Source of the DNA: a virus
IMG/VR virus record: IMGVR_UViG_3300043823_000514
Span: 1-37,099 of that record
Strand: one strand, 5' to 3'
Length of the DNA: 37,099 bases
The position numbers were made by a program, and so were the translations under genes. The notes under the pieces are model-generated. The model made no database searches. It saw only the letters and a program-made list of their open reading frames with translations, and was not told the DNA's origin. Below, in pieces: positions 1 to 20,353 of the stretch (the stretch's first letter is position 1; each line of letters opens with the position of its first letter).

Positions 1-30
1 CCACCAGTCCACCATCCCCACCAGTCCACC
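1..30. repeat. 13-bp direct repeat at window start
   Basis: CCACCAGTCCACC occurs at 1-13 and again at 18-30 with four bases between. The copies share the CCACC/GGTGG flavour of the palindrome array that follows, and may be the end of a longer array lying upstream of the window. No function can be assigned. Confidence 0.7.
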
Positions 31-200
31 GATGCACCTGATTGGTGCATCATCCGCGCCCATGCACCAGATTGGTGCTGCACCAAAGTGGGGATGCACC
101 ATGTTGGTGCGTTGCCTTGATGGTGCGATGCAGCATGACAATGCACCAGTCTGGTGCGCTAAGTAAGTGAGTGCTCACTGGGGTGCACCAAATTGGTGCA
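31..200. repeat. Array of five GCACCA-N3-TGGTGC palindromes
   Basis: Five 15-bp inverted repeats start at 34 (left arm GCACCT, one mismatch), 64, 96, 143 and 185. Each has hexamer arms around a 3-base centre (GAT, GAT, TGT, GTC, AAT). Half sites lie at 80-85 (GCACCA) and 121-126 (TGGTGC). Start-to-start spacings are 30, 32, 47 and 42 bp, so several copies lie near the same helical face. A different short inverted repeat, AGTGAG-TG-CTCACT, is at 166-179. The arrangement fits binding sites for a dimeric DNA-binding protein: repressor operators, a partition site, or iterons of a replication origin. Which of these is not visible from the sequence. Confidence 0.75.
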
Positions 201-326
201 TGACCCTCCTTTTTCGTTGCCAGTCCCCTTTTCAGTCCATCGACCCCCTTTTAAACAGACCCCCACCCCGGGCGCGTGGGCCCCTGAGCAACCATGAATT
301 TGTATATTTTTTTAGAAAATTTGACC
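201..326. other. Gene-free spacer
   Basis: No convincing gene. Short open frames here and in the flanking repeats (167-364 and 294-476 on +, 232-429 on -) overlap each other and run through the repeat arrays. None has a good ribosome binding site, so I do not call them. A GC-rich patch lies at about 262-285, followed by an AT-rich stretch. Confidence 0.5.
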
Positions 327-527
327 GAAGTGTGGCAAGTGTGTCAAAATTGCCACACTTTTGACACACTTCTTTTGGGGGTACCCCTATATAAATCAAG
401 GACTTACAGACGATTGACACACTTGCCACACTTCTTTTCGTTTTTTTTTTTTTTTTTTTTAAAAAAAATAAAATAACATAGAGGGGGAGGTGCGAAAATA
501 CCCTGGCAAGTGTGGCAAGTGTGTCAA
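327..527. repeat. 20-bp AAGTGTGGCAAGTGTGTCAA repeats in both orientations
   Basis: The 20-mer is found on + at 328-347, as its exact reverse complement within 414-434, and again on + at 508-527, where an extra GGCAAGTGT precedes it. At 350-372 the two halves recur as TTGCCACACTT and TTGACACACTTC, so 327-372 can fold in alternative ways (328-338 with 350-360; 338-347 with 361-370; 327-334 with 365-372). A T20A8 tract sits between copies two and three. Iteron-like repeats beside an AT-rich tract are typical of a phage origin or a complex operator, but no replication gene is present to support this. Confidence 0.7.
441..468. other. T20-A8 homopolymer tract
   Basis: Twenty T (441-460) are followed directly by eight A (461-468). 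The length is exceptional for the window. It could serve as an easily melted or bent element next to the flanking repeats. The exact length may be unreliable, because sequencing and assembly often miscount such runs. Confidence 0.6.
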
Positions 528-539
528 TCCAAACTTTTG

Positions 540-565
540 GTTATATAGAACACCCTTTATATAAC
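540..565. promoter_or_regulatory. AT-rich inverted repeat upstream of the first gene
   Basis: GTTATATA (540-547) and TATATAAC (558-565) form a perfect 8-bp inverted repeat with a 10-base centre, about 50 bases before the start at 614. It could be an operator or a weak host-type promoter region. No -35/-10 pair with correct spacing was found. Confidence 0.35.
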
Positions 566-577
566 TTTCAGTAATAA

Positions 578-616
578 AGGCTGAAACGCCCAATTCTGCG
601 TATTAGTGAAGGTATG
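578..616 (+). promoter_or_regulatory. Late-promoter-like element, copy 1
   Basis: AGGCTGAAA (578-586) stands in for the GGGCG box and is the weakest of the six. GCGTATTAGT is at 598-607 and TATG at 613-616, all at the offsets shared by the other copies. The ATG of the gene at 614 lies inside the last block. If transcription starts there, the message would have no leader. Confidence 0.55.
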
Positions 617-931
617 AACAAGTACGTCTACCAAATCCAAGGCGCACTGGAAGACAAAGATGGAAACTTCCAGGGCTTTCGATTGCTTGTCTGTGATCTG
701 TACAACTTTGAACAAGTTGACATGCCCAGGTCGGTTTTGGATAAAGAAACCGCAAAGTACCTGCAGTGGCGGCTCAAAATCACTGAGGGCACCACGGATG
801 TAATGGATATCCGTAGACTACCAAACCAAATTCAACTTCGGATTCGAGCGCTGTTAGGGCGCTGGCTCGACAATTGGGTAGCACAAAACTTTTATGGCAA
901 TACTAGCGACGCAAAGGGTGCTAACCCTTGA
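614..931 (+). CDS. Hypothetical protein upstream of terminase region
   Basis: 105 residues, soluble, with no motif I recognise. The middle contains charged, helix-prone stretches (DKETAKYLQWRLKIT; IQLRIRALLGRWLDNW). It is the first gene after the control region and lies two genes before the large terminase. A small terminase subunit sits there in many phages, but nothing in the sequence demonstrates that role. The ATG at 614 has GAAGG only one base upstream, too close for a normal ribosome binding site, and lies within promoter element 1, so leaderless translation is possible. The 3' end overlaps the next ORF by 38 bases in another frame. Confidence 0.6.
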   Translation: MNKYVYQIQGALEDKDGNFQGFRLLVCDLYNFEQVDMPRSVLDKETAKYLQWRLKITEGTTDVMDIRRLPNQIQLRIRALLGRWLDNWVAQNFYGNTSDAKGANP

Positions 932-1886
932 TTACTGGAAACTAGCAAACGATATAACTGAAAGTGATATAGTTTTTGACAGGCATGGAAAACCCGTTCG
1001 GGTGAAGCTTGTCCAAAAGTACCGCTCAGAAGACTGTTACGCGGTGTACTTTGACGATGGATTGTCCATCAAGGGCGACTTGAACCTCAAACTACCCTTA
1101 GAAAACGAGAAATATCGCAAACGTACGTACGAATACAAGGGGCAAAAGAAATTCAAGCGCCCAGTTTCTGTTAAATCCTTGGAAACCCTACGCGACCTCC
1201 CACTAAGAGTGCGGGGAAAAATCCACGAATACACTGTGCCCACCGCTGGCGCGCTCCAATTACCCACCCAAGAACTCCCTGTCCCGCCTTTTGTATTCGG
1301 TTTCTGGTTTTTCAACAAAAACCCAGACGACATTATGGTCCCGCCTGACGGCTATGCAGAATTTGTCCACAGAAAATTCAAAGACGCTGGGTATAAGATC
1401 ATTAAAAAGAATAAAACCACCCACGGTCGGTACAGATTCATAACAAAACCCACTGTTCGGTCGCACTTGGTGCCAAAAGTACCAACCAGCATCCCAGAAA
1501 ACTACCTGCTTGCCTCGGTTGAGCAGCGATTGGATTTATTGCGCGGGATTATCCACTCACGGTCACGGCAGTATAACGAACGGCAAGATAGATTTCGCAT
1601 AACGTTACTAAACGAACTGGCGATCAAACAGATCCAATGGCTTGCCGAGTCACTGGGATGTAAAACCACGCTGCGCTACGACAAGTATCTTAAAAACTTT
1701 GTGCTGCGCATCAAAACAAAACTGCGCCTCATTGAAAACCAACTATCACCCAACATAAAAATCCGTCAGCAATGGCGATATGTAAACGAGATCGTTCCGA
1801 TCGAAGCTCAAAACTGTGTGCATATCGAAACTGACGGCCCCGATGGAAGCTTTCTCGTAGGAGAAGGATTTATTGCATGTCACTGA
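894..1886 (+). CDS. Free-standing degenerate intein-like (Hint/LAGLIDADG) protein
   Basis: The 330 residues follow an intein layout without exteins. Residues 8-70 resemble Hint blocks A/B (RVLTLDYWKL; HGKPVRVKLV; CYAVYFDDGLSI). Residues 91-143 resemble the region leading into the first LAGLIDADG helix (PVPPFVFGFWFFNKN), and 209-260 the second (ASVEQRLDLLRGIIHS; AESLGCKTTL). Residues 307-330 resemble blocks F/G, ending GEGFIACH then stop. Catalytic positions look lost: no Cys/Ser at the start; N/L where block B has His; the usual GDG and DTDG acids replaced by FNKN and HSRS; and the terminal His-Asn cut to His-stop. Splicing and DNA cleavage therefore seem unlikely. It overlaps terL by 10 bases, so translation may be coupled. 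No clear ribosome binding site precedes the ATG. Family assignment is from remembered intein motifs. Confidence 0.7.
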   Translation: MAILATQRVLTLDYWKLANDITESDIVFDRHGKPVRVKLVQKYRSEDCYAVYFDDGLSIKGDLNLKLPLENEKYRKRTYEYKGQKKFKRPVSVKSLETLRDLPLRVRGKIHEYTVPTAGALQLPTQELPVPPFVFGFWFFNKNPDDIMVPPDGYAEFVHRKFKDAGYKIIKKNKTTHGRYRFITKPTVRSHLVPKVPTSIPENYLLASVEQRLDLLRGIIHSRSRQYNERQDRFRITLLNELAIKQIQWLAESLGCKTTLRYDKYLKNFVLRIKTKLRLIENQLSPNIKIRQQWRYVNEIVPIEAQNCVHIETDGPDGSFLVGEGFIACH

Positions 1887-3322
1887 CACCAGAACACGAA
1901 AAACTTTTAACCAAATTCATCAAAGACAGGCCGCACTGGCCAAAGGACAAACTCGACCTGCTAACATGGCAGATCAAATGGAAACTTCAAGCGTTAGCGC
2001 ATCAGCGCGAGCCAGAAGACGGAGAATATGACACATTCCTCATGCTGGCCGGCCGCGGTTCGGGCAAGACTCATACAGCTAGCCATTGGATTGGTATTCG
2101 CGCAGCCACTTACGAAAACACACGCTGGCTTGTCACCGCCCCAACCTCTAACGATATACGAGCAACTTGTTTCGAAGGAGATTCCGGACTTCTCAATATT
2201 ATCCCCCAATCTCTTATCAGAGACTACAACAAATCCCTTTTTGAAATCACCCTCAAAAATGGCTCCATCATTCAAGGCATCCCCGCTTCCGAGCCAGAAC
2301 GATATCGTGGTAAACAATATCACGGAGCCTGGTTTGACGAGCTGTGTGCATTCGATTACTTGGACGACGCCTACGACGGTGTTCAGTTCACACTCCGACT
2401 TAAAGATCCACGCATCCCCCGAGTGCAGCAGATTATTACAACCACCCCCAAACCAAGGGAACTGATTGTAGATTTAAACGAAGGTAAAATTGGTGGCGAT
2501 GTGTATGTGGTTAACGCCAGTTCGTTTGATAACCGCGCCAACCTCTCTGAAACGTTTTTCAAACAGCTGGAGACTTATGACGGCACCGACATCGGACGTC
2601 AGGAGATCTACGGTGAGATTCTTGACCCTGAATCAGCGGGTATTATCAAACGTAAGCATTTCAAAATGTGGCCAGCGAACAAGCCAACCCCAACATTGGA
2701 ATACGTAATCGCGTCATACGACCCAGCTACCAGCGAAAAGACAACCAACGATCCTACCGCTTGCACAGTGTGGGGGGTATTTGAACAACAAGACGCAGGT
2801 ACCGCGGCCATACTGCTCGATTCATGGGATGAACACCTATCGTATCCGGAACTACGCCGCAAAGTTATCAACGACTTCAAAGAAGTTGTGTACGGAGCGG
2901 ACAATGAGTTCGGTAAGGGGCGTAAAGCTGACCTGATACTCATGGAAGACAAATCCGCTGGTATCTCACTGATCCAAGAACTCCAAGGTTCAGGTGTGCC
3001 TGTACGTGGATACAACCCCGGGCGCGCGGATAAGGTGCAGCGACTAAACATCGTAGCGCCGCTGGTAACCAAGGGTAAAATCTTCATACCAGAAGACCCA
3101 AAGAAAAAAGGCGAGTTCGCAGACTGGACAAAACGTTTCCTACGTCAGGTGTGTTCGTTCCCAGAAATGGGCGGCCATGACGACTACGTGGACTCATTAT
3201 CGCAAGGTTTACGCATTTTGCGCGATTCGGGCTGGCTTGCAGTAGATCCGCTGCCTCCAAGGGATTATGACTACTCAGATGACATATATCGTAAGAAATT
3301 CCTCAATCCATACGCGCAATAG
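1877..3322 (+). CDS. terL: Terminase large subunit (packaging ATPase and nuclease)
   Basis: 481 residues, normal length for a TerL. It is the DNA-packaging motor, docking on the portal, pumping DNA with its ATPase and cutting concatemers with an RNase H-like nuclease. Walker A is AGRGSGKT at 58-65, Walker B is WFDE at 152-155, and the coupling motif TTTP is at 188-191. Nuclease acidic residues are D282 (ASYDPAT), E357/D358 (LMEDKSAG) and D435/D436 with D439 (GGHDDYVDS). The protein is complete with no intein inside, although an intein-like gene lies immediately upstream and overlaps its start. The portal gene follows after a promoter-like element, in the usual order. Confidence 0.95.
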   Translation: MSLTPEHEKLLTKFIKDRPHWPKDKLDLLTWQIKWKLQALAHQREPEDGEYDTFLMLAGRGSGKTHTASHWIGIRAATYENTRWLVTAPTSNDIRATCFEGDSGLLNIIPQSLIRDYNKSLFEITLKNGSIIQGIPASEPERYRGKQYHGAWFDELCAFDYLDDAYDGVQFTLRLKDPRIPRVQQIITTTPKPRELIVDLNEGKIGGDVYVVNASSFDNRANLSETFFKQLETYDGTDIGRQEIYGEILDPESAGIIKRKHFKMWPANKPTPTLEYVIASYDPATSEKTTNDPTACTVWGVFEQQDAGTAAILLDSWDEHLSYPELRRKVINDFKEVVYGADNEFGKGRKADLILMEDKSAGISLIQELQGSGVPVRGYNPGRADKVQRLNIVAPLVTKGKIFIPEDPKKKGEFADWTKRFLRQVCSFPEMGGHDDYVDSLSQGLRILRDSGWLAVDPLPPRDYDYSDDIYRKKFLNPYAQ

Positions 3323-3429: not shown

Positions 3430-6345
3430 ATGGCAAATCCACAAATTCCAATTCAAAATGGCGGTAATTTGCCTGCAATAGACCCCGAAAGTAAAATTAA
3501 GGAAGGTCAAGAGCAGGATGCAGAGATCGATGAGTTCGAGGCAGAACTCGGGCTTGATCCTGACGAAGCGGAACAGGAAGTAATCGAACTTGACGATGGT
3601 TCAGTTGTTGTAAATTATGTAAACAAAGAAAGCCCATTAAAAAACCCTGAGTTCTATTCGAACTTAGCGGATGAACTCGATGAGCAGACTTTAAATTCAT
3701 TAGCAATTGAATATCTGGACTACATCGATGTCGATAAGGAAGCACGGACACAAAGAGATAAGCAATACGAAGAGGGTCTTCGTCGCACTGGCCTTGGTAA
3801 GGACGCTCCTGGTGGTGCTGTTTTTGATGGTGCTTCTAAAGTTGTGCATCCCGTCATGGCTGAAGCCTGCGTGGATTTTGCAGCCTCCTCAGCGAAAGAG
3901 TTACTTCCTCCGGAAGGTATCGTTCGTTCCAATATTAAGGGCGACGAAACTAAAACCAAACAAAAAACAGCTGATCGCAAAGTCACATTCCTTAACTGGC
4001 AGCTGACAGAACAAATTCCTGAGTTCCGTGACGAGATGGAGCAACTGCTCACTCAGTTACCACTCGGAGGTTCACAATTCCTTAAATGGCGTTACGATGA
4101 AGAACAACGCCGACCAATGTGTGAATGGGTTCCGATTGATAATATCATCCTACCTTATTCATCTACTAACTTTTATACATCTCAGCGTGTCACAGAACAA
4201 CAAGACATCACTGAGGATATCTACCAGCAACGTATTGATTCCGGTCTGTATCGCGACATGGACAATATGGGCTATTCATCGGATGCTCCATTAAACGATC
4301 AAACTCGTTCTGAAGTAGCAAACGATAAAATCGAAGGTAAAGAAAATCCATCTAAGAACATTGATGGATTGCGCAGAGTGTACGAGATCACTTGCTTTAT
4401 GCGGCTCGATGAAGATCCGCTTACAGAAGGCAAACGCGCCCCATACATTTTAACCATCGATGAGTCATCTAGCAAAGTGTTGGCTCTACGAAGAAACTGG
4501 GAGTCAAATGACGAAAAACTCGAGAAGTTGGACTGGTACGTTGAATTTAAATTCATTCCTTGGCGCGGTGCTTATGCTATTGGCCTACCTCATCTTATTG
4601 GCGGTTTGTCTGCCGCCCTTACTGGCGCTTTACGTGCTTTGTTGGACGCAGCATTTATCAACAATAGCCAAACAATGCTTAAGCTCAAAACTGGACGCGT
4701 TTCTGGCCAGTCTGATAGGATCGAACCGACGCAAGTTTTAGAAGTTGAAAGTGGTCCTGGTGTTGATGACATTCGCAAGATTGCGATGCCAATGCCATTC
4801 AACCCACCATCCTCAGTTCTCTTTGATTTGCTTGGATGGTTAACAACTGCTGCTAAAGGCGTTGTCACCACTGCTGAAGAAAAGATTGCAGATACCAACG
4901 CCAACACACCTGTTGGCACAACACAAGCTCTGATCGAGCAAGGTGCCAAGGTATTCTCATCCATTCATGCTCGTTTACATCGCTCACAAGCGATGTCGCT
5001 CAAAATTATTTCACGTATCAATCATTGGTACTTGGAAGAAATGGACAACGAGTCTGGTGAACAGATTGAGGTTCGTGACTTTGCATACAACTCTGATGTA
5101 CGCCCAGTTTCCGATCCTAACATTTTCTCTGAGACACAACGTTTAGCTCAGAACCAAGCCCTCTTACAGATGGCAACACAAGCAAACCAAATTCAACCAG
5201 GTTTGTTTGACATGCGCGCAGTATACAAGCGTATTTTAGAACAACTTAAAGTGCCAGAACAAGAAGAAGTGTTGCCAAATCCAATGGGTAACAATGAATC
5301 TAACCCAGCACTTGAAAACGTATCGATGACGATGGGTCGTGCAGCCGCTGCGTATCCCGATCAGGACCACATTGCACATATTCAAGTGCATTTAGAGTAT
5401 GCCAACAACCCAGCATACGGCGGAAACCCCGTCATCGGTCCTATGTTTGCACCACACGCTTTAGAACACATCAAACAACACTTAACATTGCACTATTTGC
5501 AAGCAATGCGTGGATATGTTGCAGAAGCATCTGGGGGTAAGGACATTTTAGAACTCCATACAGAAAAACCACTCGATCAAAACGCTCAAAAAGCTTTGGT
5601 ATTGGCTTCTCGTTTGGTGGATCAAGACACCCAACAAAATATGGGTCAGTTCTTGCCACAAATTACAGCATTGGCACAAAAAGTCGCACAAGCTCAGCAA
5701 TCACAGCAACAAAACGCGCTTATGTCTGACCCAACAGCCGCTGCAATCATTAAAACGCAGACTGCTGAGACACAACGCAAACTGCAAGAAGCTCAAGCTA
5801 AAATGCAGCTCGATACTCAGTCAATGCAACAAGACTATCAGATCAAAATTGCTGAACTGCAGCAAAAAGTTCAAGAGTTGCAAGCTAAGTACAGCACTCA
5901 AACGAATATTGACAACCAACGCAACGCAACTGACATTGCAATGGCTAATATCAACAACGCAGCTAAAGAACGCGTTGCAATGATCACCGCCGGCGCACAG
6001 ATGGATCAAATTCAAGCCCAATTGGAAGCTGAACAAGACAAATCTGCAATGGAAGCGATCAATGCGGCCAATGAAGACATCCGTCAACATGGTTTGGCTG
6101 TTCAACAACAAGCATTTGAACAACAAGCACAGCAAGTACAGAATCAAATTGAAGCTCAACAAGCCGTTCAGCAACATCAACAAGGTTTAGCTCAAGCCCA
6201 ACAGCAGCATGCACAACAAATGCAGCAACAGGACCAGCAACACCAACAGGGTTTAGAACAAGCCCAGCAGATGCATGAACAACAAATGCAGCAAATGCAA
6301 GAACAACAAGCAGCACAACCACAAACACCTTCTGAAGGACAATAA
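3430..6345 (+). CDS. Portal protein with long Gln-rich C-terminal extension
   Basis: 971 residues, larger than typical short-tailed-phage portals (about 530 for T7, 725 for P22). The portal ring is the vertex through which DNA is packaged and the base for the tail adaptors. The N-terminus is acidic (about 25-75). The core at about 110-640 is portal-like, with a region around 200-260 (LTQLPLGGSQFLKWRYDEE) and a central segment (about 380-520) rich in helices (LIGGLSAALTGALRALLDAA). The segment from about 735 to 971 is almost pure coiled coil rich in Gln, Ala and Met, ending in QQH/QQM-type repeats. Position between terL and the capsid genes supports the call. The gene ends in a TAATG overlap with the next ORF. 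The ATG has only a poor ribosome binding site. Confidence 0.85.
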   Translation: MANPQIPIQNGGNLPAIDPESKIKEGQEQDAEIDEFEAELGLDPDEAEQEVIELDDGSVVVNYVNKESPLKNPEFYSNLADELDEQTLNSLAIEYLDYIDVDKEARTQRDKQYEEGLRRTGLGKDAPGGAVFDGASKVVHPVMAEACVDFAASSAKELLPPEGIVRSNIKGDETKTKQKTADRKVTFLNWQLTEQIPEFRDEMEQLLTQLPLGGSQFLKWRYDEEQRRPMCEWVPIDNIILPYSSTNFYTSQRVTEQQDITEDIYQQRIDSGLYRDMDNMGYSSDAPLNDQTRSEVANDKIEGKENPSKNIDGLRRVYEITCFMRLDEDPLTEGKRAPYILTIDESSSKVLALRRNWESNDEKLEKLDWYVEFKFIPWRGAYAIGLPHLIGGLSAALTGALRALLDAAFINNSQTMLKLKTGRVSGQSDRIEPTQVLEVESGPGVDDIRKIAMPMPFNPPSSVLFDLLGWLTTAAKGVVTTAEEKIADTNANTPVGTTQALIEQGAKVFSSIHARLHRSQAMSLKIISRINHWYLEEMDNESGEQIEVRDFAYNSDVRPVSDPNIFSETQRLAQNQALLQMATQANQIQPGLFDMRAVYKRILEQLKVPEQEEVLPNPMGNNESNPALENVSMTMGRAAAAYPDQDHIAHIQVHLEYANNPAYGGNPVIGPMFAPHALEHIKQHLTLHYLQAMRGYVAEASGGKDILELHTEKPLDQNAQKALVLASRLVDQDTQQNMGQFLPQITALAQKVAQAQQSQQQNALMSDPTAAAIIKTQTAETQRKLQEAQAKMQLDTQSMQQDYQIKIAELQQKVQELQAKYSTQTNIDNQRNATDIAMANINNAAKERVAMITAGAQMDQIQAQLEAEQDKSAMEAINAANEDIRQHGLAVQQQAFEQQAQQVQNQIEAQQAVQQHQQGLAQAQQQHAQQMQQQDQQHQQGLEQAQQMHEQQMQQMQEQQAAQPQTPSEGQ

Positions 6346-6827: not shown

Positions 6828-7268
6828 ATGGCGATTGATTTTAAAGAGCAGGACGAACCAGATTTACGCACGGAACTTGAATGTTTCCCTATCGTAGACG
6901 CTGGAACAGAAATCCTTGGAAATCGTGTTTTGGTGCAACTGCGCCGAGAAAAGATTACAAGTAAAGGTGGGATCATCTTGGTAGATGAGACCAGACAAAC
7001 ATTACGCTTTAACGAAACCGTGGCAAAAGTGATCGCAGTTGGTCCTTTAGCCTACCGTAATACTGATACGCTTGAATACTGGCCGGAAGGCCCTTGGTGC
7101 AAACCAGGTGATTTAGTGCGCACCATCAAATACGGCGGTGATCGATTTGTTGTGCAACCAGACGACGAAGGCGCTCCAGTGGTATTTATCACACTAATGG
7201 CGACCGAAGTAATCTCCAAGATTAAAACGTTTGAGCATGCACAAAAAATGAAAGCGTTCGTAGATTAA
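6828..7268 (+). CDS. GroES-like co-chaperonin
   Basis: 146 residues. From about 30 it follows the cpn10 fold signature: GNRVLVQL at 31-38, a mobile-loop region with GGIILVDE at 47-54, TVAKVIAVGP at 64-73, KPGDLVRTIKYGGDRFVV at 92-109, and VVFITLMATEVISKI near the C-terminus. GroES caps GroEL and helps fold large proteins. Phage versions such as T4 gp31 adapt the host GroEL to the capsid protein. It has an N-terminal extension of about 28 residues and an insert around 74-90, so it is longer than bacterial GroES (about 97). No groEL is present, so host GroEL would be the partner. AAAGGA precedes the ATG. Its place among head genes fits capsid folding. Confidence 0.85.
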   Translation: MAIDFKEQDEPDLRTELECFPIVDAGTEILGNRVLVQLRREKITSKGGIILVDETRQTLRFNETVAKVIAVGPLAYRNTDTLEYWPEGPWCKPGDLVRTIKYGGDRFVVQPDDEGAPVVFITLMATEVISKIKTFEHAQKMKAFVD

Positions 7269-12162: not shown

Positions 12163-15100
12163 ATGGCAGATCAGTCGATAACCCAGCTACCGATTGCTTA
12201 TACCTTAACAGGGGATGAGCAAGTACCAGTAGTACAACGCGGAGTTACTAAACAAGCGTCTGTGTCACAGATCGCTAATGCTGCGTCGCCGGGTAAATTG
12301 ATTACCAATATGACGTATACTCCGTCAAACGGAGATTTAAATGTCTATTACAGTGACGGCTCAACTCAAGTTTTAGGCCCTATTTCTGGCTGGTCTGGCT
12401 ACAGTGGTTATTCTGGTATCTCTGGTATCTCTGGTATCTCTGGTTATTCTGGTATCTCTGGTTATTCTGGTATCTCAGGATACAGTGGGTCAGGTGTTTC
12501 AGGATTCTCAGGATATTCTGGTAAGTCAGGATATAGTGGTATCGGCACATCTGGCTTTTCCGGCACATCTGGCTTTTCCGGTTATTCTGGTATATCTGGC
12601 TATTCTGGTATATCTGGCTATTCTGGTATCTCTGGTATCTCTGGATACAGTGGTTCTGGTGTCTCCGGCTACAGCGGTTCTGGTATCTCTGGCTACAGTG
12701 GTTTTTCTGGCTATAGCGGTATCTCTGGTTACAGTGGCTTCTCTGGCATCTCTGGTTGGTCTGGTATTTCTGGCTATAGTGGTATTTCTGGTTACTCTGG
12801 TATCTCTGGCTACAGTGGTTCTGGTATCTCTGGCTATAGTGGTTTTTCCGGTATCTCTGGCTATAGTGGTATCTCTGGCTATAGTGGTATCTCTGGCTAT
12901 AGTGGTATCTCTGGCTACAGTGGTTCTGGTATCTCTGGCTACAGTGGTTTTTCTGGTATTTCTGGCTACAGTGGTATTTCTGGCTTCTCTGGCATTTCTG
13001 GTTATAGTGGCTTCTCTGGCATTTCTGGTTACAGTGGCTTCTCTGGCATTTCTGGTTACAGTGGCTCAGGTATCTCTGGCTATAGTGGCTCAGGTATCTC
13101 TGGCTATAGTGGCTTCTCTGGTATCTCTGGCTATAGTGGCTTCTCTGGTATCTCTGGTTACAGCGGTGTCTCTGGCTATAGCGGATTCTCTGGCATCTCT
13201 GGCTATAGTGGCTTCTCCGGTATCTCTGGCTATAGTGGCTTCTCTGGTATCTCTGGCTATAGTGGCTCAGGTATCTCTGGTTACAGTGGCTTCTCTGGTA
13301 TCTCTGGCTTCTCTGGCTACAGTGGCTTCTCTGGTATCTCTGGCTACAGTGGCTTCTCTGGCATCTCTGGCTACAGCGGTATCTCTGGCATCTCTGGCTA
13401 TAGTGGCTTTTCTGGTATCTCTGGCTATAGTGGCTTTTCTGGTATCTCTGGCTACAGTGGCTTCTCCGGTATCTCTGGCTACAGTGGCTTCTCTGGTATC
13501 TCTGGCTACAGTGGCTTCTCTGGTATCTCCGGATATAGTGGCTTCTCTGGTATCTCTGGCTACAGCAGTTTTTCCGGCATTTCAGGATACTCTGGAATTA
13601 GCGGATATTCAGGTTTTTCTGGAATAAGTGGTTATAGTGGATCTGGTGTAAGTGGATACTCTGGTTACAGCGGCGAATCTGGATATAGCGGTGAAACTGG
13701 TTCTTCTTTTTCTTTTGAAGGTACTGTAGCGACCTACGCAGATTTACCGCTGGTAGGTAACACTAATGGCGATGCCTATGTTACTGCAGATACAGGACAT
13801 CTTTGGATTTGGGACGCCGATGATAGCGAATGGGAGGACGCTGGTTTATTTTTAGGTGAGAGTGGTTACAGTGGATATTCTGGCACTAGCGGCTATAGTG
13901 GTTCAGGTATCTCTGGCTACAGTGGCTTCTCAGGTATCTCTGGCTTCTCTGGTTACTCAGGTAAATCTGGTTACTCAGGATACAGCGGCTCTGGTATTTC
14001 TGGTTATAGTGGCTCTGGTGTGTCTGGTTTCTCGGGCTACTCTGGCACATCTGGTTATTCAGGATATAGTGGTTTCTCAGGTATCTCAGGACAAAATGGT
14101 CCTATGGGAACCTCTGGCTACTCAGGATATTCTGGTGCATCCGGAATAAGTGGCTATAGTGGATACTCTGGCATCTCTGGTTGGTCTGGTATTTCCGGAT
14201 ACTCTGGTATCTCTGGTTGGTCTGGTATCTCTGGTTACAGTGGATATTCTGGTATCTCCGGCTGGTCTGGTATCTCTGGCTACAGTGGCTTCTCTGGTAT
14301 CTCTGGCTACAGTGGCTTCTCTGGTATCTCGGGCTACTCTGGTTCTGGTGTATCTGGCTATAGTGGTTCAGGTATCTCTGGCTACAGTGGCTTCTCTGGT
14401 ATCTCTGGCTTCTCTGGTATTTCCGGCTGGTCTGGTTATTCAGGATATAGCGGTGTATCTGGTTGGTCTGGTATCTCAGGCTACAGCGGTTTCTCTGGCA
14501 TCTCTGGATATTCAGGTTCGGGTGTAAGCGGATACTCAGGTTACAGTGGTATCTCAGGCTTCTCTGGCTATTCTGGTATCAGTGGATACTCAGGATACTC
14601 TAGCTTCTCAGGTTACTCAGGCATTTCAGGATTCTCTGGCTACTCTGGACAAACTGGTGCTGGTGGTGTAGTTAGCTATTGGGGTGCATTTTATGATACC
14701 ACCAACCAAACGGCAGCTAATACAACGACAGCCTACGTAGTTAATATTGGAAGTACATCTGGTAACAATGGAATCAGCATTGTTTCTGGAAACCAAATAA
14801 CCCACAGCAGTGCTGGAACATACAATTTACAGTATTCAATTCAGTTTGTAAATACAGATTCAAACTCAGATGTTGTTAACGTATGGCTTAGAAAAAATGG
14901 CGCTGATGTAGCAGATTCTAATAGTGAATATTCAGTACCCGGAACATCGCACGGCGGGTCTGGAGCATTGATTGCTGCAGTTAATTATGTAATCAGCTTA
15001 AACGCTGGGGACTATTTACAGCTAGTTTGGTCAACTACTAACACAACAGTATCTATCGCCACAATCCCAGCGGGGACAAGCCCAACAGTGCCTGTTGCGC

Positions 15101-18100
15101 CAGGTGTAATTGTTACATCTACACAAGTAACTTACACCCAGTCTGGATATTCAGGATTCTCTGGATATTCAGGATTCTCTGGCTACAGCGGCATATCAGG
15201 TTACTCAGGATTCTCTGGTATTTCAGGTTACTCAGGATTCTCCGGTATCTCTGGATACTCTGGCACCTCTGGTTACAGCGGCTCAGGTATCTCTGGATTC
15301 TCCGGTATCTCTGGCTGGTCTGGTATTTCTGGCTGGTCTGGTTACTCAGGTTACAGTGGAATATCTGGCTGGTCTGGTATCTCTGGTTACTCTGGTTCTG
15401 GTGTATCTGGCTACTCTGGTTCAGGTATCTCTGGCTACAGCGGTACTTCAGGTTATAGTGGTTCTGGTATCTCAGGCTTCTCCGGTATCTCCGGCTACAG
15501 TGGTATCTCTGGCTACAGTGGTATCTCAGGTTTTTCTGGTTACAGCGGATCCGGTATTTCTGGTTACAGTGGTTCAGGTATATCTGGTTATAGCGGTTAC
15601 AGCGGCATATCGGGCTTTAGCGGCGTTTCTGGCTATTCTGGTACCTCTGGATACTCTGGCTCTGGTTTAAGCGGCTACAGCGGTTTTAGTGGTATCTCAG
15701 GCTATTCTGGAATAGTTGGTCAATCTGGCTACTCAGGATACTCTGGATGGTCTGGTATTTCTGGTTATAGTGGTATCTCTGGTGCAAATGGCCCTTCTAC
15801 CGCAATCAACGCAACCAACAGTACTTCTAATACTAACTACTACCTAATTGGTGTTCCAGCTTTAGGTTCCAATCAGACACCATACGGTTTTAGTACAGAT
15901 GGTTTGACCTTCAACGGTTCAACACAAGTATTTACAGCTCCGTATCATGTTGCTACAGGATCAATTGCTAGTGCGGCTACAACAGGAGCATTTAGCTACG
16001 GCACTCTCGGATATTCTGATACCAACATCTTTGCTAGCTTTGCTACCAGCGTAAATACCTATGCACAGATGGTGCTCCAGAACAACAATACTGGCACACA
16101 GGCTTCTGCCGACTTTATTGTATCTGGTAGCAGCGGCACAGCGTCAACTTACTACGGTGACTTTGGCACTAACGGAGCGGGATTTAGCCAAGCAGGTTCA
16201 TTTGGTTTACCAAACGCGGTATATGTATACAGTTCTAATGGCGACTTAGTACTCGGTTCCATCACAGCCAATGCCATACGCATGGTTGTGAGCAACAATA
16301 CTACCGACGCGATGACCATCGACAGCGGTGGTGGTGTGTCATTCAACGGTTCTTACGGAACCAGCGGTTACATCCTGTCAACCAACGGATCTGGCCATGC
16401 TCCAACATGGATCAACGGCATCGGATTATCCGGTTACTCAGGCTATAGCGGCACATCCGGTTGGTCTGGTATTTCCGGCTATAGCGGCATAAACGGATCT
16501 ACTGGTACATCAGGTTATTCTGGATATAGCGGCATTTCTGGATTTTCTGGCATTTCTGGCTGGTCTGGCTATAGTGGCATTTCAGGCTGGTCTGGTATTT
16601 CAGGCTATAGTGGTTCTGGTATCTCTGGCTGGTCTGGTATTTCTGGCTGGTCTGGTATTTCTGGTTACAGCGGATCAAGCGAAACATGGCTTGGTGTATG
16701 GTCGAGTTCAACAGCTTATGTTGTAAGAAATATTGTTTCGTATAATGGCTCTTCTTACTACTGTATTTTGGCCAACACAAACCAAGTACCAACCAATACA
16801 ACATATTGGATTTTGGTAGCACAATCAGGCTACTCTGGCTATAGTGGTACTAACGGCTCCACCGGTACATCCGGCTACTCTGGCTATAGTGGCACTAACG
16901 GATCCACCGGTACATCTGGTTACTCTGGCTATAGTGGTACTAACGGTGCTACAGGCACATCTGGCTACTCTGGCTATAGTGGTACTAACGGTTCTACTGG
17001 TGCTACTGGTACATCTGGTTACTCTGGCTATAGTGGTACTAACGGTTCTACTGGTGCTACTGGTACATCTGGTTACTCTGGCTATAGTGGTACTAACGGT
17101 TCCACTGGTACATCTGGTTACTCTGGTTATAGTGGTTCCACTGGTGCTACAGGTACATCTGGCTACTCTGGCTATAGTGGCGCAAATGGTCCCTCTACTG
17201 CGATTAACGCAGCCAACAGTACCACTAATGCTGCCTACTATCTAGTTTCTGTTCCAGCGTTGGGTTCTAATCAAACGCCATACGGGTTCAGTACATCAGC
17301 GTTAACTTATAATGGATCTACTGGTGTCTTAAGTTCACCAACATTGAATACAACTTCTGTAGTTCAAGAAGGATCAACAGGACAGTTCTATTCAACTATC
17401 CATAATGTAAACAGTTCTTCCTATAATGCTTCTTTAGCATTTATCTCAACAAATGGTACGACTGCTACACCAGCAGGAACTACATTGGGGAACACAGACT
17501 TCTGGGGCTATACAGGTTCAGCCGTTGCTTATGCTGGTAGTATTGACTTTAATGCTTTGGCTTCTACCTATGGTGGCACTACTTGGACAACATCAAGCAC
17601 CCCAAGTGAATTAGCGTTTAACGTTACAGCGCCAGGTTCCACTACTCCAGCGTATGTTGGTGTTGTGACCTACACAGGTATTAATAGTTGCGCTATTGGT
17701 GCTACAGTGGCATCAACTGGTGTGTTTACTACCGCTCAAATCACCAGTCTTGGTGTAGGTACCGCAGCGTCAGGAACAACTGGCGAGATTCGTGCAACCA
17801 ATAACGTAACTGCGTACTACTCTGACGAGCGTTTAAAAACAAAAACAGGTAACATCGAAAACGCATTGGATAAACTGTGCGCTATTGAAACCATGCTGTA
17901 CCACGCTAATGAAACAGCGGTAGCACTTGGTTACGACGCCTCAGTTCAAGAAGTTGGTGTAACAGCCCAGTCTGTACAAAAAGTACAACCTGAAGTTGTA
18001 GTTCCAGCTCCAATTGATGATAAGTACTTAACTGTTCGTTATGAACGTTTAATTCCACTAATCATCGAAGCTATTAAAGAATTACGCGCTGAAATTAAAA

Positions 18101-18105
18101 AATAA
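12163..18105 (+). CDS. Giant collagen-like tail fibre with S74 chaperone domain
   Basis: 1980 residues. An N-terminal domain (1-75; ITQLPIAYTLTGDEQVPVVQ) probably anchors to the virion. Gly-X-Ser repeats (X = Tyr, Ile, Phe, Trp, Val) fill about 76-515, 564-831, 993-1208, 1422-1505 and 1556-1676. Between them sit a small fibre module (515-563; DAYVTADTGHLWIWD), a C1q-like beta domain (832-992; VVSYWGAFYDTTNQTA), a beta domain at 1209-1421, a CBM5/12-like module (1506-1555; WLGVWSSSTAYVVRN) and another fibre domain. The C-terminus (about 1866-1980) is a Peptidase_S74 intramolecular chaperone, with YYSDERLK placing catalytic Ser1887 and Lys1892. That domain trimerises the fibre and cuts itself off. 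Domain 1209-1421 shares its start with the later domain at about 1677. The shaft has essentially no proline, unlike true collagen. Confidence 0.9.
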   Translation: MADQSITQLPIAYTLTGDEQVPVVQRGVTKQASVSQIANAASPGKLITNMTYTPSNGDLNVYYSDGSTQVLGPISGWSGYSGYSGISGISGISGYSGISGYSGISGYSGSGVSGFSGYSGKSGYSGIGTSGFSGTSGFSGYSGISGYSGISGYSGISGISGYSGSGVSGYSGSGISGYSGFSGYSGISGYSGFSGISGWSGISGYSGISGYSGISGYSGSGISGYSGFSGISGYSGISGYSGISGYSGISGYSGSGISGYSGFSGISGYSGISGFSGISGYSGFSGISGYSGFSGISGYSGSGISGYSGSGISGYSGFSGISGYSGFSGISGYSGVSGYSGFSGISGYSGFSGISGYSGFSGISGYSGSGISGYSGFSGISGFSGYSGFSGISGYSGFSGISGYSGISGISGYSGFSGISGYSGFSGISGYSGFSGISGYSGFSGISGYSGFSGISGYSGFSGISGYSSFSGISGYSGISGYSGFSGISGYSGSGVSGYSGYSGESGYSGETGSSFSFEGTVATYADLPLVGNTNGDAYVTADTGHLWIWDADDSEWEDAGLFLGESGYSGYSGTSGYSGSGISGYSGFSGISGFSGYSGKSGYSGYSGSGISGYSGSGVSGFSGYSGTSGYSGYSGFSGISGQNGPMGTSGYSGYSGASGISGYSGYSGISGWSGISGYSGISGWSGISGYSGYSGISGWSGISGYSGFSGISGYSGFSGISGYSGSGVSGYSGSGISGYSGFSGISGFSGISGWSGYSGYSGVSGWSGISGYSGFSGISGYSGSGVSGYSGYSGISGFSGYSGISGYSGYSSFSGYSGISGFSGYSGQTGAGGVVSYWGAFYDTTNQTAANTTTAYVVNIGSTSGNNGISIVSGNQITHSSAGTYNLQYSIQFVNTDSNSDVVNVWLRKNGADVADSNSEYSVPGTSHGGSGALIAAVNYVISLNAGDYLQLVWSTTNTTVSIATIPAGTSPTVPVAPGVIVTSTQVTYTQSGYSGFSGYSGFSGYSGISGYSGFSGISGYSGFSGISGYSGTSGYSGSGISGFSGISGWSGISGWSGYSGYSGISGWSGISGYSGSGVSGYSGSGISGYSGTSGYSGSGISGFSGISGYSGISGYSGISGFSGYSGSGISGYSGSGISGYSGYSGISGFSGVSGYSGTSGYSGSGLSGYSGFSGISGYSGIVGQSGYSGYSGWSGISGYSGISGANGPSTAINATNSTSNTNYYLIGVPALGSNQTPYGFSTDGLTFNGSTQVFTAPYHVATGSIASAATTGAFSYGTLGYSDTNIFASFATSVNTYAQMVLQNNNTGTQASADFIVSGSSGTASTYYGDFGTNGAGFSQAGSFGLPNAVYVYSSNGDLVLGSITANAIRMVVSNNTTDAMTIDSGGGVSFNGSYGTSGYILSTNGSGHAPTWINGIGLSGYSGYSGTSGWSGISGYSGINGSTGTSGYSGYSGISGFSGISGWSGYSGISGWSGISGYSGSGISGWSGISGWSGISGYSGSSETWLGVWSSSTAYVVRNIVSYNGSSYYCILANTNQVPTNTTYWILVAQSGYSGYSGTNGSTGTSGYSGYSGTNGSTGTSGYSGYSGTNGATGTSGYSGYSGTNGSTGATGTSGYSGYSGTNGSTGATGTSGYSGYSGTNGSTGTSGYSGYSGSTGATGTSGYSGYSGANGPSTAINAANSTTNAAYYLVSVPALGSNQTPYGFSTSALTYNGSTGVLSSPTLNTTSVVQEGSTGQFYSTIHNVNSSSYNASLAFISTNGTTATPAGTTLGNTDFWGYTGSAVAYAGSIDFNALASTYGGTTWTTSSTPSELAFNVTAPGSTTPAYVGVVTYTGINSCAIGATVASTGVFTTAQITSLGVGTAASGTTGEIRATNNVTAYYSDERLKTKTGNIENALDKLCAIETMLYHANETAVALGYDASVQEVGVTAQSVQKVQPEVVVPAPIDDKYLTVRYERLIPLIIEAIKELRAEIKK
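12388..17190 (+). repeat. Short in-frame repeats coding for the Gly-X-Ser fibre shaft
   Basis: Near-identical 9-bp units of the type TCTGGCTACAGTGGT recur in five blocks: about 12388-13706, 13852-14656, 15139-15786, 16426-16677 and 16828-17190. Synonymous changes separate many copies (TAC/TAT, AGT/AGC/TCT), so some blocks are old, while long runs around 13080-13560 are nearly identical and look recently expanded. Copy number here may vary between strains or be misassembled. Confidence 0.9.
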
Positions 18106-18147: not shown

Positions 18148-19392
18148 ATGAAATATAGTATTGTAATACCGACTTACAATCATTGCGACGATTTACTTAA
18201 ACCGTGCATTGATTCAATCCTGAAATATACTGATATGACCGATGTAGAATTGGTGATATCGTATAACGGATGCACAGATGAAACCAAGCACTATGTAACA
18301 TACCTGACAAGGATGTTCGAAAATAAGGGTCTTGGAGACAATATTAAATACTATGCTTCAGATAAACCATTGGGCTTTATTGGAGCAACAAACGCCGGTA
18401 TCAAAGTAGCATCAGGCGATAAAATTGTTTTACTGAACAATGACACTGTTTTGCTTGACCAACCTAAGAACAAATGGTTGGAGCGATTGGATGTAGCAGA
18501 TGTAACTGGTGTATTGAGTCAGTACTCAAACATCACACGAAGGAACTTTTTCGTATTCTTCTGCGCTATGATTGACCGAAAAGTGATTGACGCTATCGGT
18601 CTATTAGACGAAGATTTTGACATGGGCGGCTGTGACGATATTGATTATTGTTTCCGCGCACAAGAAGCAGGATTTAAGCTGGTAGATGTGGGCTATAAAG
18701 GCGACTTCCCAATCTACCATATTGCTGAAGCAACAGTGCATCAGCCAGAACTTATTGAAGCATACAAAAAAGCGTTTTCTGGTAACGAATACAAGCTAGC
18801 TAAGAAACACAATATGGAGCATTATAAGTACATGCTCTCTAATAACTACGAGCGAGCTGTATTCCTTAAAGGCGACGGAGTTTTCCCACGCGAGACACAG
18901 CGCTATGAATGGGCGGCTAAGAATGTATTGCCAGGGTCTGTATTAGAGATTGGGTGTTCTACCGGTTACGGTTATCAGTTCCTTAACTCACCAGCGTATA
19001 TGGGTTTAGATTACGACCCAATCATCGTTGAGGTGGCTAAAGAACAACAGTGGTCTGATGATGCAACATTCTACCAAGCCGACATCAATAACTACGAACT
19101 TGGCACATATACCAACATCATCGCGTTTGAAGTGATTGAGCACCTTGATAATGGTCTAGAGATCGTTGAAAAACTCAAACAGCACTGCAAACGCTTATTG
19201 ATTACTGTACCCCATAATGAACCTAAAGGTTTCTGGGGCGAGCATCACAAGTTGCATGGTTTGACTGAGAAGGACTTCCCCGGCTTTAAGTTTTCGTACA
19301 TCGACTATGACGGAAACATAACTGATACTTTGAAACCAGCTAGTGATACCAATCCAGCTAATTTGATGATTTGCAGGTGGGACAATGAGTAA
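18148..19392 (+). CDS. GT2 glycosyltransferase fused to SAM methyltransferase
   Basis: 414 residues in two domains. Residues 1-230 are a family 2 glycosyltransferase: YSIVIPTYNHCDDL at the N-terminus, GFIGATNAGIKVASG, and LLNNDTVLL, whose NND (97-99) takes the place of the metal-binding DXD. Residues about 250-400 form a class I methyltransferase, with motif I VLEIGCSTGYGYQF near 265-278, an acidic GLDYDP, and FEVIEHLDNG. It would transfer a sugar from a nucleotide donor and methylate an acceptor, perhaps the same glycan. Target unknown: the neighbouring fibre, host surface glycans, or nucleotides. It lies between two Ser/Tyr-rich fibre genes and overlaps the next gene by 8 bases. TTTAGGA lies 8 bases before the ATG. 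Confidence 0.85.
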   Translation: MKYSIVIPTYNHCDDLLKPCIDSILKYTDMTDVELVISYNGCTDETKHYVTYLTRMFENKGLGDNIKYYASDKPLGFIGATNAGIKVASGDKIVLLNNDTVLLDQPKNKWLERLDVADVTGVLSQYSNITRRNFFVFFCAMIDRKVIDAIGLLDEDFDMGGCDDIDYCFRAQEAGFKLVDVGYKGDFPIYHIAEATVHQPELIEAYKKAFSGNEYKLAKKHNMEHYKYMLSNNYERAVFLKGDGVFPRETQRYEWAAKNVLPGSVLEIGCSTGYGYQFLNSPAYMGLDYDPIIVEVAKEQQWSDDATFYQADINNYELGTYTNIIAFEVIEHLDNGLEIVEKLKQHCKRLLITVPHNEPKGFWGEHHKLHGLTEKDFPGFKFSYIDYDGNITDTLKPASDTNPANLMICRWDNE

Positions 19393-20353
19393 AATTCTTT
19401 GTTCCATCGCAACAAGAGGTAGATATTTTACAACGTTACCCATTGTATTAAACGCTGTAATAAACCAAACACGCGCACCAGATAAAATCATTATCTTTGA
19501 TGATAATGACGAATTTAAAGATATGCGTACTGAAATGATCTACCAGTACTTTTTTCAGATGTTGGATCTTAAAGGTATTGAGTGGGCGTGGCAACCAGCT
19601 CCTAAAAAAGGACAACACCACATTCACCAAATCGCTAACTGGTCCAATTTTGATTGGGTCTGGCGCGTGGATGATGATGCAGTTCCAGAGCCAAATGTTT
19701 TAGAAACACTAGCTAGTTACATTGAAGACGGTGTGGGTGCAATTGGAGGTGCTGTTTTAACACCACCAAATATCCCCAAAACTGACGCGGTAACCGGCCT
19801 TGTTGACAATATTTATTCAGAACCAAACATCCAATGGGGGATGATAAATGCTGCAAAACCTGTGGAGCATTTACACTGCACTTTCCTGTATCGTGCTAAC
19901 GTGTACAATTATAATCTTGGTTTATCTAGGGTAGCACACAGAGAAGAAACTCTGTTTACCTACGGTTTACATAGAAATGGATACAAGATTCTAGTTGTGC
20001 CTAATGCTGTAACATGGCATATGAAAAACCCAGAGGGCGGAATTCGTAGTGAAACAAATAAAGAAATGTATACACATGATGAGAACATTTTTAGAAATCA
20101 CTTACGATTCAGGGACAGCACAATTGTAATTTTAAATTGTGGCAAAGGTGACCACATTGTTTTTAGTAAAATTTTGCCTGAAATAAAGAACCCTTTTGTT
20201 TTCAGCTGTTACCAAGACATTATTGAAGGACAATCTATAGCAGAAGCGCATAGACTATTTGGTGACCTAGATAACTGGGATATTTACCGAAAAATGTCTC
20301 AATGGAAATGGCAAGGCAGTTTAGAAGACGCATATAGGAAGTTTTATCTATGA
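19385..20353 (+). CDS. Glycosyltransferase (GT-A fold) with GT9-like C-terminal half domain
   Basis: 322 residues. Residues 1-235 look like a GT-A glycosyltransferase: KILCSIATRGRYFTTLPIVL, an IIIFDDND segment, and WVWRVDDDAVPEP, whose VDDD (about 95-98) is the metal-binding DXD. Residues about 243-322 (STIVILNCGKGDHIVFSKIL) resemble the N-terminal Rossmann half of family 9 heptosyltransferases, with the G-x-GD loop. The matching C-terminal half appears as the next ORF, which overlaps by ATGA. The pair may work as a split GT9 enzyme attached to a GT-A domain. The GT-A call is firm; the GT9 reading is weaker. Confidence 0.8.
   Translation: MSKILCSIATRGRYFTTLPIVLNAVINQTRAPDKIIIFDDNDEFKDMRTEMIYQYFFQMLDLKGIEWAWQPAPKKGQHHIHQIANWSNFDWVWRVDDDAVPEPNVLETLASYIEDGVGAIGGAVLTPPNIPKTDAVTGLVDNIYSEPNIQWGMINAAKPVEHLHCTFLYRANVYNYNLGLSRVAHREETLFTYGLHRNGYKILVVPNAVTWHMKNPEGGIRSETNKEMYTHDENIFRNHLRFRDSTIVILNCGKGDHIVFSKILPEIKNPFVFSCYQDIIEGQSIAEAHRLFGDLDNWDIYRKMSQWKWQGSLEDAYRKFYL

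Follow-up and report, generated by a model that had tools for sequence, protein, structure and literature searches.

A probably domesticated intein beside the DNA-packaging motor gene of environmental phages

A 330-residue protein encoded directly before the terminase large-subunit gene (terL) of an environmental virus is, judging by its residues and its predicted structure, very probably a domesticated, non-catalytic intein. The gene was analysed in a stretch of 37,099 nucleotides (IMG/VR record IMGVR_UViG_3300043823_000514; hereafter the window). The explanation that we prefer, that of a non-cutting, DNA-binding partner of TerL with a presumed role in packaging, is given a probability of about 0.5. 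It holds that a class 3-type intein with a LAGLIDADG homing endonuclease, of the kind that other phages carry at the Walker A loop in TerL or DnaB, became a gene of its own that ends where its splice junctions had been, with a Met added before Ala1 and a stop replacing the terminal Asn. The residues for splicing and cutting were lost and the fold was retained. The strongly basic LAGLIDADG region would still bind DNA without cutting it, and the protein, produced together with TerL through translational coupling, would act on the terminase; its likeliest part in packaging would be to recognise the site or to help with loading, next to a TerS-like protein encoded elsewhere.

The intein-derived open reading frame (ORF) has its own start and stop codons and no exteins (Table 1), as the original prediction, made from the letters of this DNA, had proposed. 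The terL gene that follows is uninterrupted, also as proposed. The description of the ORF as fused to terL does not hold; the two ORFs overlap by 10 nt as separate frames. In all 162 examined loci that carry the free-standing ORF, fewer than 30 codons lie open in frame before its ATG, which, together with its own start and stop, places it outside any host protein.

Table 1. Coordinates of the features discussed (window positions unless a contig is named).
Feature	Position	Strand	Description
Noncoding region upstream of ORF1	1–613		Clustered palindromes at 33, 63, 95, 142 and 184
Perfect 22-bp inverted repeat	412–433 / 508–529		Arms flank a T/A tract
ORF1	614–931	+	105 aa, conserved protein; 38-nt overlap with start of intein-derived ORF
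Intein-derived ORF	894–1886	+	330 aa; ATG 894, TGA 1884–1886; Hint ~1–71 and 294–330, LAGLIDADG region ~72–293
Met1-Ala2	894–899	+	Ala2 is intein position 1; Met-Ala in 106/106 distinct proteins; Ala in 65/65 aligned
Block B, residues 61–67	1074–1094	+	Catalytic His replaced by Leu65 (L 64, M 1 of 65); class 3 Trp replaced by Leu67
First LAGLIDADG motif PPFVFGFWFFNK, residues 131–142	1284–1319	+	Metal-binding Asp replaced by Asn141; aligned with GDG of canonical inteins
Second LAGLIDADG motif DLLRGIIHSRSRQY, residues 214–227	1533–1574	+	Last Asp of DTDG replaced by Arg223
Block F QNCVHIET, residues 306–313	1809–1832	+	Cys308 at class 3 nucleophile position (block F position 4)
Block G FLVGEGFIACH, residues 320–330	1851–1886	+	TGA replaces terminal Asn; Thr of WCT replaced by Cys329
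terL	1877–3322	+	481 aa, no interruption; Pfam Terminase_6N, E 1.1e-15; ATG inside last 10 nt of intein-derived ORF
terL Walker A GRGSGKT	2051–2071	+	K64/T65 is the P-loop intein site in other phages; empty here
terL codons 65–76	2069–2104	+	Low synonymous variation in carrier clade; lead only, weakened by portal control
Phage GroES-like co-chaperonin	6828–7268		PHROG and Pfam matches
Long proteins rich in GYSGISG-like repeats	12163–18105 and 20788–22653		
Two glycosyltransferase-like proteins	18148–20353		Judged by eye; relatives in 80-kb contig G010
TerS-like gene, contig L095	603–995	−	Away from terL
TerS-like gene, contig L096	11608–11994		Away from terL
TerS-like gene, contig L100	3049–3423		Away from terL
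TerS-like gene, contig L104		reverse	Away from terL

ORF1, which precedes the intein-derived ORF, encodes a protein of approximately 100 residues among the relatives and gives a profile match in 152 of the 162 loci. Of the ten loci in which it went undetected, seven have more than 600 bases upstream and still carry the intein-derived ORF, several of them being near-identical phages. ORF1 has no match in PHROGs, NCBIfam or isolated phages, and one Pfam match that lies far under the cut-off; a PDB search with its predicted structure (pLDDT 83) gave nothing at an E of 0.001 or lower. Extra sequence, which we take from its motif to resemble a GIY-YIG homing endonuclease, is inserted upstream of ORF1 in three relatives (L022, L025 and L026), and four others (L058, L059, L062 and L064) have extra sequence between ORF1 and the intein-derived ORF. 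Further along the window, the proteins rich in GYSGISG-like repeats are, from their sequences, probably tail or surface fibres.

The predicted fold of the 330-residue protein is that of a complete intein. The AlphaFold model, computed from the 65-sequence alignment, has a pLDDT of 91.4 and a pTM of 0.88, and Foldseek matches it with PI-SceI (TM up to 0.76) and I-DmoI, which shows that a LAGLIDADG fold is present. VIA-align superposes the model end to end on PI-SceI (Z 25.1 over 315 residues) and also matches it with the class 3 DnaB mini-inteins 6rix (Z 18.1) and 6bs8 (Z 17.6). Model and alignment agree on a Hint fold with blocks A, B, F and G in order. In the best structural rows, intein residue 1 is matched by residue 2 of the model, and the position just before the terminal Asn by residue 330, with intein lengths that are in part assumed. 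The ends of the model coincide with intein ends, and the free gene therefore looks trimmed at both splice junctions. No domain has been added, as the chain stops at the intein C-terminus and is filled by the Hint and LAGLIDADG parts.

Sequence comparisons point in the same direction. The terminase large-subunit family phrog_15 matches residues 9–229 of the protein (PHROGs, E 2.3e-11), as one of the terminase families whose profiles extend over it. This match and the agreement with PI-SceI bear out the assignment to Hint/LAGLIDADG proteins in the original prediction, and the full-length fold upholds its view that the whole ORF is of intein ancestry. Searches of Pfam and NCBIfam with the protein returned no match, and a sequence search of solved structures no full-length match, the best being 6rix over residues 15–66 (E 0.0037). 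A tblastn search of isolated phages matched 140 records, all at less than 60% identity; in the 40 of these that were listed, the annotated features at the matches are terminases (some called exonuclease), a DnaB helicase or AAA proteins. Among BFVD predicted structures, the best match is A0A6J7WN65, a 293-residue uncultured-phage protein of the homing endonuclease type with 25% identity, which may be another free-standing relative.

Residues lost and kept were mapped by comparing the alignment of 65 intein-derived proteins with six canonical phage inteins, which were chosen among those 40 records and read in detail. All six are inserted in TerL or DnaB between the Walker A Lys, or an equivalent Lys, and a Thr or Ser. 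Position 1 is Ala in four of them and Pro in one, and these five carry the class 3 Trp and Cys; the sixth (AM4) begins with Cys, in class 1 fashion. By these motif residues, most of the nearest canonical relatives read belong to class 3, a class defined in the available portions of PMC3196547, PMC5050341 and PMC7664689. The original prediction had listed the first residue among those lost. Because the nearest canonical relatives are mostly class 3, for which Ala at position 1 is normal, the conserved Ala2 is not counted as a loss; position 1 is without a Ser, Thr or Cys nucleophile, which is the class 3 state.

Elsewhere the losses are consistent across the family. Residue 67, the class 3 Trp of block B position 12, is Leu in 43, Phe in 21 and Ile in one of the 65 proteins, and never Trp. 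Residue 141 is Asn in 54, Ser in seven, Ala in three and Cys in one, with no acid in any. Residue 223 is Lys in 61 and Arg in four, the window protein being one of the few with Arg. Cys329 stands in place of the block G position 5 Thr in 65/65, its codon being partly dictated by the overlapping terL start, and the chain halts where the terminal Asn would stand. The claim that all positions for splicing and cutting are lost is thus correct for the block B His, both LAGLIDADG acids and the terminal Asn, and incorrect for the first residue and for Cys308, which is Cys in all 65 proteins and aligned with the block F Cys of the canonical inteins. Some of this conservation has to be read with the sampling in mind: short motifs seeded the profile scans, which in part guarantees conservation at LTLDYWK, FGFWF and LVGEGF. 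The seed motifs do not include positions 2, 65, 223 and 308. On these alignments the defining catalytic residues are lost except for the block F Cys, and the best reading is a class 3-type intein predicted to be dead in both splicing and cutting.

The invariance of Cys308 raises the question of whether some Hint chemistry persists. Class 3 inteins use the block F Cys as a nucleophile (PMC7664689, in the part available), and a Cys308 that still reacts, for example in N-terminal cleavage or in a covalent link to a partner, could be the selected function. This is very unlikely: none of the 65 proteins has the His or the Thr that would complete the class 3 triad, many other residues are just as invariant as Cys308, and there is no extein apart from Met1.

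The family is large and its reading frame is maintained. A single-sequence scan of viral contigs found six relatives of the 330-residue protein, and two profile scans contributed the best 80 of 285 and the best 80 of 292 relatives. The 162 loci comprise the window, 158 other viral loci and three from one bacterial genome bin, repeated contigs included, and represent 106 distinct proteins and 111 distinct ORF DNA sequences. The ORF starts with ATG in all 162. In 160 of the loci, the end of the ORF and the beginning of terL share 7 or 10 nt, with terL starting at ATG in 155 and at GTG in five. The exceptions are L233, in which the terL match starts approximately 450 nt downstream of the intein-derived ORF, and L244, in which the ORF contains a single in-frame stop. 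L233 has extra inserted sequence between the intein-derived ORF and terL.

Selection was estimated by the Nei–Gojobori method with the overlap regions excluded. Of 175 pairs with at least 70% identity, 146 have a dS of 0.05 to 2, and among these the dN/dS of the intein-derived ORF ranges from 0 to 0.18, with a median of 0.10, values that indicate purifying selection on the ORF. These values agree with the earlier suggestion that the frame is kept open by selection for something else. The terL genes beside the 70 closest pairs have a dN/dS of approximately 0 to 0.06, and between whole contigs the intein-derived protein shows 46–55% identity against 84–88% for TerL. The intein-derived protein is constrained, yet it is diverging faster than TerL.

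This divergence, faster than that of its neighbours, and the in-frame stop of L244 could be taken as signs of a free homing endonuclease gene in decay and useless to the phage. Such decay was looked for among the relatives and the stop in L244 is the only one in the 162 loci; the dN/dS does not exceed 0.18 across the 146 pairs, and 160 of the 162 ORFs retain their start and the terL overlap. Both catalytic acids are moreover replaced in all 65 aligned proteins, one of them by Lys or Arg throughout. Decay is strongly disfavoured, and is rejected here on the strength of the dN/dS values and the intact ORFs.

A tree of 191 TerL sequences, with Caulobacter phage GB2A as its root, places the 109 carriers of the intein-derived ORF in one clade with no non-carrier inside it (support 0.70, branch 0.60). 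The ORF was not found beside 80 sister terL loci, of which 54 have at least 1,200 bases before terL, nor in Manatee Spring phage MW202545 or in GB2A, and the profile used there detected it in the three bacterial-bin loci in the same run. That profile also found nothing in 14 sister records (12 contigs and two phage genomes) in a run without a positive control of its own. For the sequences sampled, the simplest reading is a single gain followed by retention beside terL. Phage GB2A (L088) has a second, truncated terL-like ORF at 2445–3113, upstream of its full terL.

What the retained scaffold does is suggested by its charge. In the 65 proteins, the net charge of the LAGLIDADG region lies between +14 and +28, with a mean of +21.5; the six canonical inteins have +5 to +11 there. 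In both groups, the Hint part ranges from near neutral to acidic. A region this basic suits binding of DNA without cutting, and on that ground the intein-derived protein is likely to bind DNA. An action in packaging together with TerL is proposed more tentatively. Persistence of the intein-derived ORF in the seven loci without a detected ORF1 supports the preferred explanation. The protein's much faster divergence from relative to relative than that of TerL speaks against it.

A packaging role has to be reconciled with the small terminase subunit. A TerS-like gene of approximately 130 codons lies away from terL in 4/4 longer contigs (Table 1), and the two copies scanned match PHROG terS families with E 4.2e-6 and 9.3e-9; the TerS-like profile was built from three of the four contigs, so that only the fourth is an independent detection. 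This profile has no match in the window, a 37-kb fragment, and PF03592 found nothing in 16 records. The 330-residue protein is itself no TerS-type helix-turn-helix protein, its sequence and model being those of Hint and LAGLIDADG domains. Replacement of TerS as the sole recognition subunit is rejected in that form, on account of the TerS-like genes of the four contigs. Because such a gene lies elsewhere, DNA recognition may already be covered, which counts against the preferred explanation; the intein-derived protein is not needed as a substitute for TerS, and it may assist.

It is possible, though doubtful, that the former intein still reads a long DNA site without cutting it, perhaps the ancestral homing site in terL, and so marks phage DNA for TerL or guards terL from being invaded by active inteins. 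Leaving aside the start overlap, synonymous variation in the terL of the carrier clade is lowest at codons 65–76 (0.62 where 0.82 is expected; p 0.0003, an uncorrected value for a single window picked after the profile had been seen). The symmetric window of codons 54–76 gives p 0.0008 in carriers; in the sister clade there is no such dip (p 0.91 to 0.99). Codons 59–70 are not significant (p 0.13), again as uncorrected single windows. Low variation near the old insertion site in carriers only would fit continued binding there, as weak evidence. The portal gene, examined as a control over its first 620 codons, has three dips with z of −4.9, −4.5 and −3.7, against −4.3 in terL; because these are equally deep, the terL dip is treated as a lead only, and its value to the preferred explanation is weakened accordingly. 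In the portal gene (3430–6345), codons ~377–422 have strongly reduced synonymous variation, with z down to −4.9.

The same observations bear on the idea that the dead endonuclease is a shield, which still binds its former homing site, in the Walker A region of terL, and hides this site from active P-loop inteins of competing phages, leaving terL intein-free. That all six canonical inteins sit directly after the Walker A Lys or its equivalent in TerL or DnaB, that this site is empty in the terL of the window, and that the dip at codons 65–76 and 54–76 is seen in carriers and absent from the sister clade all speak for a shield. The p values carry the qualifications given above, however, with codons 65–76 chosen post hoc and codons 59–70 not significant; two portal windows dip more strongly than terL, and a third comes close to it. 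The threat is also hypothetical, as this terL lineage showed no active P-loop intein. A shield is an unlikely function.

The region upstream of ORF1 (Table 1), perhaps an origin, packaging or control site, offers another candidate target. The sequence TGCACCANNNTGGTGC, with at most two mismatches, has 14 matches in the window against 1.24 expected, 11 of them at 33–200 (palindromes counted on both strands). Many relatives keep the inverted-repeat layout with other arm sequences, built of short (~9-nt) repeats, and in 78 of 85 loci inverted 6-mers upstream of ORF1 are more than twice as frequent as the mean of shuffled sequence. Given this architecture, the protein could be an autoregulator that binds the palindromes or inverted repeats and, in the manner of WhiA, controls transcription of ORF1, the intein-derived ORF and terL; with terL corrected for, repeat similarity does track this protein (partial r 0.18, p 0.001, 71 loci). 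The effects are weak, however, and ORF1 correlates too (0.12), while the LAGLIDADG part explains less (0.067) than the Hint part (0.154), and the repeats could serve replication or another regulator. Autoregulation is accordingly improbable. The LAGLIDADG part as reader of the upstream repeats is unsupported by these two correlations, and the closer relation of the repeats to the Hint part is also a point against the preferred explanation, in which the LAGLIDADG region binds DNA.

Among the nearest known comparators, the class 3 inteins of phage P-loop ATPases (TerL and DnaB, for example in mycobacteriophages; MchDnaB1, MsmDnaB) share the fold, the block order, Ala1 and the block F Cys, and the canonical relatives read sit at the Walker A K-T/S site (PMC5050341, as far as its available text goes). 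The family described here differs in being free-standing and without exteins, and in lacking the block B His and Trp, the block G Thr, the terminal Asn and the endonuclease acids. The Arthrobacter FB24 Arth_1007 intein is likewise class 3-like, with catalytic residues missing, and fails to splice; it is described as a pseudogene without activity, flanked by 66 extein residues, and has no block F Cys, which the present family retains, and a conserved free-standing family is not described in the available part of that report (PMC3196547). The yeast HO and WHO elements are also standalone and intein-related, without exteins or splicing, and HO has been adopted for a host function (PMC7282813, available in part). 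According to the same source, HO keeps nuclease activity and a zinc finger, whereas the family here has neither the nuclease acids nor a zinc finger. Of the precedents considered, HO comes nearest to a standalone gene derived from an intein.

WhiA is not known to have a Hint domain. It belongs to DUF199 and is a LAGLIDADG-derived regulator that has lost cleavage (PMC7282813, same portion), and the present family also has a LAGLIDADG region without the acids. WhiA has a helix-turn-helix domain (PMC11701221, in the part available), whereas the 330-residue protein consists of Hint and LAGLIDADG parts only. Among packaging proteins, a comparison can be drawn with gp74 of HK97. Its gene is situated near the terminase genes. 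The available text of PMC9410871 describes gp74 as an HNH endonuclease and packaging accessory that acts with the terminase, an active nuclease of HNH fold that promotes cos cleavage; the present family is neither HNH nor predicted to be active.

A literature search, with subscription papers outside its scope, found no description of such a free-standing intein before terL. Inteins are regarded as elements that remain within their host protein and are selfish or, at the most, under conditional regulation. The takeovers known to us use only part of the machinery, HO keeping the cutting and WhiA the LAGLIDADG domain. Here a complete intein has lost the residues for both activities, yet has kept its full length under purifying selection as a separate gene tied to terL across many phage contigs, which makes it a natural test of what an intein scaffold is used for once it is no longer selfish. 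The arrangement is probably that of a domesticated intein fixed beside the DNA-packaging motor gene of environmental phages and serving as a DNA-binding helper, and it directs attention to a packaging-motor partner that has gone unrecognised or to a masking defence against intein homing.
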